The notes under the pieces: generated by a model | The model's database searches: none | The model's input: only the letters and a program-made list of their open reading frames with translations | Told to the model about the DNA's origin: nothing | Assembly (NCBI RefSeq): GCF_030704535.1 | Contig: NC_081822.1 | Coordinates: 3,835,001-3,899,000 of the forward strand | Length of the DNA stretch: 64,000 nt | Source of the DNA: Vitis vinifera | Taxonomy: Eukaryota; Streptophyta; Magnoliopsida; Vitales; Vitaceae | Direction: 5' to 3' | Translations under genes and position numbers: made by a program | Part shown: positions 20,101 to 23,100 of the stretch, piece by piece | How the letters are laid out: every line of letters begins with the position of its first letter | How positions within the stretch are numbered: the stretch's first letter is position 1

Positions 20101-23100
20101 GGTGGTGCTGCCAACCCACAAAGGCAAGCACACTTCCTCCCCCCTCACCCCCTCTTAAAGAGCATTTTGAGCCATTTTGGAAATGCCTCGAGGAGACATT
20201 ACCAATGTTTTCAGAACCGGACCGGTGATCGAACCGGAAAAGTTACCGGTTCACGGTTCACTGGTCGGACCGGCGGTCGAATCGCTATTGAACCGGTGAC
20301 GTCATAAATATATAATTTATATATTATTAAAATTAAAAATAATTATAAAAATTTTAAAATATATATGAATAAATTAAAAATCAATAATATTATCAAATTA
20401 AATCATATTAATATTTTTAATTTTGTTAAATGAAATATGTAAAATATTTAAATATGAATATATTAAAAATGAAAATTTAAACTAATTTTATCATTTTTAA
20501 AAATATTATATTATTTTTATTTAACATTACAAAAAAAATTTAAAATCTAATATATATTATTTTGTTTAGCATCTTAACTAACAAAAGCTGTGTAGCCGAG
20601 TGGTGCCTTGGATGTCTTCCGAATCTGGGGTCCAAGGTTTAATTCCTCTTGGCTGGGGGACTTGTTATTATTTTTTTCATTCATTTGGTTGGTTAGGAAT
20701 CCCACATCGGATTCAAAGAGAAATGAGGATGCCAAGGGTGCCTATAAATTCTATCCACATTGAAGGTCTATGTATTGCCTCATTGGGTGGGCTCAAGACT
20801 AAGCCCACAATATGGTTGAGTGGGATTTGGGCTTTGTCTTGATGAGACAAGGCCCAGAATGGGCATTTGCCAAAACTTTTTTATGCAAGGGAGCCTTTAA
20901 AATGGAGGTTCAAATTGAACCGTTCGGTTCGATTGAACCGTCCGGTCGACCGGTCCGACCGCCGATTTCAGCGATTCGTGGCCGGTTTAAATCTTAAACA
21001 GTTCAATAAGCAAATCGGACCGGAATTATGACCGGTCGACGGTTGAACCGGTTGGACCGGCCGGTCCGGTCCGGTTTTTAAAACATTGGACATTACCCAT
21101 ACTTGAGGAGACATAATGACATTTTTTAATTACAAAAGAGTTTTTAATTCATTTTTTTTATTTAGAATCTCTTTATAATAATTATATGAACCCATGGAAA
21201 AAAAAATTGGGCCCAAAAAATATTTATTTTAATTTTTTTGTCCGAAATTAGGGAAAAATAGTGAAAATATTTTTCAACCTATAAACTGCCACAACCCCCT
21301 AGCCTTCTAACAATGGATGAGAAGATGGTTTACCGATTTATTTGCATTTCTACACATATAACAGTAACTTGCTAATGATCATCCTCTTTTCTTGTGTTGT
21401 TCCAAGGTTGGGATCTTTCTCCATGCGCCTCCCACATGAAGAAACCCACTTTAGTTGGAGCCTAAGAGCTTAACATTACCTTTAGGGGAATGACACCACA
21501 CCCTTTAACTCCAAGGTAGAATGCAAAATCCTCACTGAGAATTTACTATCCTTCTAAACCATTCTATCCTCCTTACTACACTTTCCTAACACATGTAGCA
21601 TTCGAAGTAGCTCCTCAATGCTATCCATCTCCCAATGTTAGAAATTTCTTTGGAAACACAATGTCCACAAAGACCTACTTACCCTCTACCACCCAAGCCT
21701 TCTTGACAGCAGCAAAGAGAATGGAAATGGAGAAGAGTCCTTTAAAGGAACATCACCCCACACTACACGACTTCCCAAAATTTAATTCTTCTCCCATTGC
21801 CTACCTCAAACCTTGTGTTGTGCTTAAAAGCTCCGCATCCTTTTACTATCGCCTTCCACAAACTAACATCATACCCCTCCCTCCCATCTTTGAGAGGAAT
21901 TACCTTTTCTATAGTGCTAATCTTTTGGAAAATCTCTCCTCTACCATATCCAAACAGCTGAAGACTTAAAAGGAGCTCTTAGAGGCAGGCTTAAGTAAGT
22001 GATAGGTAGCTTTCCCACCCCACAACCCTATACCAAAGCAACTTCCACCACATTAGGGACCTCCCCTACTAGAATTAGTTCACTTTATTCAAGTTTATTT
22101 TCAGTCTTGGTGAAGCTGAAGCCTCAAACCGAAGCAAAACCCAACTCATGGTTTAATTGATATGAGCAAGGTTCCAAACAAGGAGGTGTGAAATCTCCAC
22201 TCCCTCTCCTCCTCCACCCCCTATCATGGAAACCAAAATGAAGCCTCCTCTGCCCTTCTCAAGAGAATGCTAAGGGCATCCATCACCAAAACAAATAGAT
22301 AAATGGGATAGGGGTCTCCTTGTCTCAAACCATTTGAGCTATGAAAAAATCCAAAAGGTGGGCCAATCACCAAAACTAAAAACCTTATTGTTGGAACGCA
22401 AAACTGAATCCAATGAATCAATTTCTACCTTAAGCCTATTTTTTTTGCATCACCTCCATGAGAAAGTTCCAGCTTACATGGTCATAAGACTTTTTCAGTA
22501 TCTAACTTACAAACAACTTCTCCTCTATGACTTCTTAATCTTGAATCAATAGCCTCATTGGCAATAAGAGTTGGATTTAAGATTGCCTCCATTTCACAAA
22601 TGCAGTATGAGAACCCACTCACTCTATCTAAACAAGTTCCACTACATAAAGAAATAAATTAAAATAGGAACATGTTGTAATCATTTTTCTCATTTCAGCA
22701 TGTTGCTCATGTGGAACTTACTAGTTGTCAAGTCCCAAACCCCAATAGTCAAGATATACATGCATACACAAGGTGCTCAGTTCGAGTGTCCATAAGGTTG
22801 TAACTCATTGTTTTCCCCTCTTTTTGGGCAACAATCGGAAAAGAGCTTTGAAATCCCTCCAATTAACATGCTTTCCATGCCAATAAGTCATAAAGCTAAT
22901 AGCACCCCCTTAGAGTGAAAAAAGGAAATGAGATTTGTCAAAACCTGCATACAATGTAATCATACAAGATACATATGCCAAGTTTCCAATCTCACATATC
23001 CATGAAACAATATAACCAGTTAATTTCTTTCTTTCTTTCTTTCTTTGATAGGCAAAAGATAACCTACCATTTATGCATAATGTTATTATAAGTGGGATAA

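Follow-up and report, generated by a model that had tools for sequence, protein, structure and literature searches.

Features at the locus
The window, i.e., the whole 64,000-nucleotide stretch of Vitis vinifera DNA that was analyzed, contains a short transposable element, whose parts are given here together with a host coding piece:

17899..18183, minus strand: coding piece of a DnaJ-domain gene (Pfam PF00226 DnaJ, E 1.1e-06), in an intron of which the element probably lies
20195..20202, no strand: left copy of the target-site duplication GACATTAC, a perfect match to the right copy
20203..21088, plus strand: non-autonomous hAT element (MITE-like) of 886 bp, with many dispersed copies, most of them with 8-bp duplications
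20203..20225, plus strand: left terminal motif CAATGTTTTCAGAACCGGACCGG, with 101 exact genome matches (reversed control, 0)
20593..20603, plus strand: box A TAGCCGAGTGG, exact, a conservation peak among the local 11-mers
20636..20646, plus strand: box B GGTTTAATTCC, decayed in the window copy, one mismatch from GGTTCRANYCC
20671..20677, plus strand: run of seven T, by its sequence Pol III terminator-like, downstream of box B
20699..20709, plus strand: USE ATCCCACATCG, an exact fit to the consensus RTCCCACATCG
20710..20742, plus strand: 33-base spacer from USE to TATA, divergent in sequence and kept in length
20743..20749, plus strand: TATA box TATAAAT, with 33 bases between USE and TATAAAT
20774, plus strand: putative transcription start, about 26 nt past TATAAA, extrapolated from the U1 locus L021
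20788..20807, plus strand: hairpin 1 (stems 20788-20793 and 20802-20807), paired across copies
20825..20860, plus strand: hairpin 2 (stems 20825-20838 and 20846-20860), paired across copies
21066..21088, plus strand: right terminal motif CCGGTCCGGTTTTTAAAACATTG, with 108 exact genome matches (reversed control, 0)
21089..21096, no strand: right copy of the target-site duplication GACATTAC, a perfect match to the left copy

The assignment to the hAT superfamily is based on the 8-bp target-site duplication, which is perfect at the window copy, and on short terminal inverted repeats, namely CAATGTTTT / AAAACATTG at the ends with CCGG-rich repeats next to them, which were present in nearly every extracted copy. 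A first-pass annotation of this DNA had described hAT ends with a perfect 8-bp duplication, a full box A and a near box B 43 bases apart, and the USE with TATAAAT at a distance of 33 bases; all of these are borne out at the positions given above, the 43 bases being counted from start to start. The run of seven T and the two hairpins are additions to that description. The element resembles the short hAT elements and hAT MITEs of plants, e.g., the Hatvine families of grapevine, which are likewise short, flanked by 8-bp duplications, bounded by inverted CCGG-rich ends, and devoid of a transposase (PMC2528002). In contrast to the Hatvine families, for which the accessible part of that source mentions no such promoter, its interior has a USE/TATA pair plus, in one branch, box A and box B. 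The likeness to hAT MITEs extends to a larger relative, L099, which shares the ends of the window element and encodes a BED/DUF659 protein. Elsewhere in the window, two ordinary tRNA genes are located at 5205-5277 (tRNA-Arg [tct], minus strand) and 10647-10720 (tRNA-Trp [cca], plus strand).

Dispersed copies and family structure
In the searched assembly (495.6 Mb, 21 contigs), at least 39 places, the window included, cover at least 801 bases of the element with 78 to 100% identity, with 40 of 1,650 candidates scored; from a further candidate list, 40 of 91 were scored. The duplications of 48 extracted elements were perfect in 35 cases and had one mismatch in 11 cases and two mismatches in one case, and a single element had none. 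The copies L072 and L073, which agree at 882 of 884 positions, are located on different chromosomes within different duplications, and this near-identity indicates recent movement of the family. L071 is likewise near-identical to them, so that three chromosomes carry such copies, each within an 8-bp duplication of its own, which again points to recent mobility. For L049 and L051, which have one duplication in common, a single insertion later duplicated along with its flanks is the probable origin.

The counts below refer to a set of 35 examined elements with both ends exact. L079-L086, L087, L088, L090, and L091, which had been picked by interior similarity or by the USE, were excluded from this count, and L096, first fetched via the list of USE matches, was retained as it qualifies by its ends too; part of the locus set came from a separate extraction and not from the left-end search. 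At least 43 exact-end pairs of less than 7 kb can be formed from the listed left and right ends (100 places listed per end). Nine of these pairs lie outside the set of 35, two of which measure 3.5 and 6.7 kb, and L014 and L015, also among the nine, carry the promoter module.

An snRNA-type promoter with exact spacing
The plant USE consensus is RTCCCACATCG, and in Pol II genes USE and TATA box are separated by four helical turns (PMC9845283, accessible part). The element conforms to this snRNA type of promoter with an exact USE and a TATA box 33 bases, or about four helical turns, away. The pattern TCCCACATCG-N18..38-TATAAA has a single occurrence in the window and none in 100 shuffles, and genome-wide it yielded 291 matches (138 + 153) versus 29 (15 + 14) for the reversed control. 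Positive controls were found in the same genome through the USE/TATA pattern itself: at the loci with an Rfam-confirmed U1 (L020, L021, and L023-L026) or U2 (L034), the USE-TATA spacings are 32 to 34, and L031, L032, and L035 resemble snRNA loci below the Rfam threshold (the control scan left out L022 and L033). The element thus shares the distance of about 33 bases with the plant Pol II genes for U1 and U2, but no snRNA is present downstream. A study by Waibel and Filipowicz from 1990, cited in PMC5079582, is said, going by its title, to show that spacing sets the choice of polymerase. In the U1 locus L021, the Rfam U1 match starts 26 nt past TATAAA, so transcription in the window would start near 20774.

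The possibility mentioned in the first-pass annotation that the family at large lacks these motifs is not what was found. A USE (at most two mismatches) with a TATA box at exactly 33 bases is present in 30 of the 35 exact-end elements, the USE being exact in 28 and having two mismatches in 2. By branch, the arrangement was detected in 23 of 24 members of the tRNA-like branch (exception, L112, with a spacing of 29), in 7 of 8 members of a longer second branch (exception, L100, in which the TATA part is missing), and in none of the 3 members of a group formed by an element of the transposase type and what look like deletion derivatives of it (L099, L102, and L106). An exact USE/TATA pair follows within 800 bases of 22 of the 33 listed exact left ends on contigs C1-C7, and 1 of the 11 misses (L104) is owed to the end of the match list. 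The spacing is 33 in 43 of 45 aligned copies (24 and 29 in the other two), and the orientation relative to the element is constant in all copies read.

Other repeats of this genome, among them an LTR-like one, contain the same motifs, which limits any claim of uniqueness. L009 and L092, which are alike over long stretches and which look, by eye, like an LTR retrotransposon (L009 shows a primer-binding-site-like string), have TCCCACATCGG followed by a TATA box as in the element, but they belong to a different repeat with a spacing to TATAAA of 26 rather than 33. In these repeats, TCCCACATCGG and TATATAAA both occur with 26 bases to TATAAA, and the USE is situated near the middle of the locus. 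It is conceivable that TCCCACATCGG with a nearby TATA box is a general plant promoter module with nothing specific to snRNA genes, and the long resemblance between the two LTR-like loci is in line with this, as is the fact that, among the first 100 USE/TATA places (a list ending within contig C7; spacing of 33 in 53 and of 26 in 14), just 28 are near an exact hAT terminus. However, 25 of these 28 hAT-linked places have a spacing of 33, in agreement with the 32 to 34 of the confirmed U1 and U2 genes, whereas the LTR-like places have 26, and we consider a general module to be improbable.

Two further observations concern the arrangement of the motifs. At L017 (the same place as L095), a tandem pair of USE motifs is followed by a TATA box 33 bases on, with no recognized hAT ends around it. 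In the alignment, the 33-base spacer of the second branch contains an inverted repeat in L101, L103, L107, L110, L113, L116, and L088, which in several copies reads GAAGCACATG..CATGTGCTTC.

Possible sources of the promoter
The relative L099 measures 4,584 bp, has the same exact ends and a duplication matching at 7 of 8 positions, and encodes a protein with DUF659 and a BED zinc finger in broken frames; the hAT dimerization domain had no match in the three protein pieces scanned. No USE/TATA pair at up to two mismatches was detected in L099, and its transposase reads opposite to the USE/TATA direction of the element, so we disfavor an origin of the promoter by inheritance from the transposase gene. 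Capture of a U1 or U2 promoter is unsupported upstream or at the start region, where none of the nine hAT sequences tested was similar to U1 or U2; for the spacer, scores were marginal in four of the nine (uncorrected P ≤0.04). Judged by these comparisons, the promoter may or may not have originated from an snRNA gene.

The tRNA-like block
In the window, box A has 2 matches at up to one mismatch versus 0.24 expected, and box B alone, with 15 matches versus 8.7 expected, is uninformative. In 37 aligned copies the commonest form of box B is GGTTCAAATCC, and among 45 aligned copies, 44 have a run of at least six T downstream of box B. A regex search detected box A plus box B in 21 of 24 members of the tRNA-like branch and found no such block in the second branch, where a tRNA-like stretch is visible by eye in the alignment of L118. 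With the ten representatives described below, box A stands out as a peak of conservation, its score being equaled or exceeded by 16 of 389 local 11-mers, and box B does not, since its score is reached by 98 of 389. Against the Rfam tRNA model, the window element had no match at the gathering threshold, and none appeared when 20 loci were scanned up to E 1 and 17 loci up to E 5.

The order box A, box B, and T run is that of tRNA-derived SINEs; in contrast to these, however, the unit here has hAT ends and duplications, no match to the tRNA model, and no independent copies with ends of their own. A nested SINE was rejected: all 28 matches to the tRNA-like block sit within hAT copies, and hence no separate SINE has inserted into the hAT element. 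The unit, kept by one branch, resembles an internal Pol III promoter in a degenerate state and is a weaker part of the observation than the USE/TATA pair. Of the proposal in the first-pass annotation that the element carries two types of small-RNA promoter, the motifs of the Pol II snRNA type are accordingly borne out for most of the family examined, and those of the Pol III type are narrowed to a single branch out of two, with no Rfam tRNA match.

Conservation of the motifs
Conservation was scored on ten subfamily representatives chosen from 45 copies (pairwise identity of 74 to 88%; the alignment covered elements of 801 to 959 bases and thus not L115). The scores were 0.964 for the USE, 0.971 for the TATA box, 0.93 for the terminal 23-mers, and 0.72 for the spacer, i.e., the snRNA-type promoter is kept about as strictly as the transposition ends. 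Between 20560 and 20960, the non-AT-rich interior, the USE is the top 11-mer of 389, and the score of the TATA box is reached by 11 of 393 7-mers. Over the whole interior, they rank lower (USE in the top 7.0%, TATA in the top 10.7%) because the AT-rich stretch is well conserved too. The 51-base block of USE, spacer, and TATA has a constant length in 10 of 10 representatives, and many nearby 51-base windows vary.

Changes shared between copies amount to 0.030 per site in USE plus TATA, 0.018 in the termini, 0.140 in the other local interior, and 0.038 in the AT-rich part, which is also poor in them. Private changes amount to 0.0049 in USE plus TATA versus 0.0090 in the background, a value that represents four events only and is matched or undercut by 39 of 335 same-shaped blocks. 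We read the shared-change pattern as selection on source elements, i.e., on those copies that go on making copies. The private changes are so few, and so hard to equate with the background level, that some constraint on single insertions may exist as well. The conservation pattern fits a benefit for the element better than one for the host.

Passive inheritance, in which a promoter piece was captured once by an ancestor and has since been shared by descent, with motifs that have no present role, would account for the fact that all copies derive from common source elements, that most of the interior is alike within subfamilies, and that the AT-rich part is highly conserved as well. It accounts poorly for the divergence of the spacer and flanking sequences while USE, TATA, and their spacing persist, and for the spacers of the two branches, which are alike at chance level only (9 of 33 positions versus 8.1 expected), with USE and TATA common to both. 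The depletion of shared changes in the motif blocks, which is equaled by only 6 of 335 same-shaped blocks, also argues against it, and we regard it as unlikely.

Downstream region and hairpins
Over 17 sequences, 94.8% of the cells of the two hairpins downstream of the TATA box (20788-20807 and 20825-20860) are paired, compared to 30 to 45% for slid versions, and 1 of 500 shuffles attained their covariation score. These values would be expected if the promoter were kept for a functional non-coding RNA gene whose hairpin RNA acts, e.g., on silencing or on the transposase. However, covariation is thin, with two pairs changed on both sides (matched by 53 of 500 shuffles), and the sequence after the TATA box is poorly conserved (0.66 for 20700-20879). 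The consensus fold of all 45 copies retains hairpin 1 only, and hairpin 2 appears with the ten representatives. Moreover, by consensus alignment the sequence downstream differs in the second branch, and Rfam gave sub-threshold hits only in the element, with no match to a known snRNA, also at relaxed thresholds; its relatives yielded a single snRNA hit, to U4 in L099 and below threshold. A functional RNA gene is even less probable than passive inheritance. The 3' box pattern CA(N)3-10AGTNNAA occurs in 9 of 53 copies versus 4.5 expected, and it was found in just 1 of 12 USE/TATA control loci, so that it says little about the copies.

Interpretation
The best explanation, to which we assign a probability of about 0.55, is that the window element is a copy of a short non-autonomous hAT lineage whose snRNA-type promoter has been kept by selection on source copies, likely for accessibility to the transposase. 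From the USE/TATA layout, the USE-binding complex (SNAPc) would be expected to bind here, and short Pol II transcripts would start near 20774 and run into the two hairpins. Factor binding or transcription would then, most likely, keep the element accessible to a transposase, for which a relative, e.g., L099, could be the source in trans, and the promoter would be retained via those copies that go on making new ones. The promoter is most likely kept because binding or transcription aids the spread of the element. In a more far-reaching version, which is tentative and which we would rather doubt than endorse, the hAT lineage recruited the host snRNA machinery (the USE-binding complex and, in one branch, TFIIIC) for its own propagation, either by open chromatin or by escape from silencing, and scatters ready-made snRNA-type units under transposon-level selection on the promoter.

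In the usual view, a MITE consists of two ends and an interior that it could do without. The end-like constraint on an unusual kind of internal promoter suggests that a non-autonomous DNA transposon spreads better when its interior is transcribed or bound by factors. In the open-licence literature, judged by titles and the beginnings of abstracts, no report was found of a USE/TATA promoter in a MITE or other DNA transposon.

For the host, each insertion places a compact promoter of the snRNA type at a new site and is a possible source of capped non-coding or antisense transcripts. The window copy had been placed by the first-pass annotation inside a host intron in antisense to the gene. An intronic, antisense position within a minus-strand DnaJ-domain gene is plausible from the sequence: the coding piece at 17899-18183 has Pfam support, and the candidate N-terminal piece at 25546-26013 was recognized by eye and gave no Pfam match. 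A DOG1-domain coding piece is located further along, at 28660-28968 on the minus strand (Pfam PF14144, E 2.1e-32).
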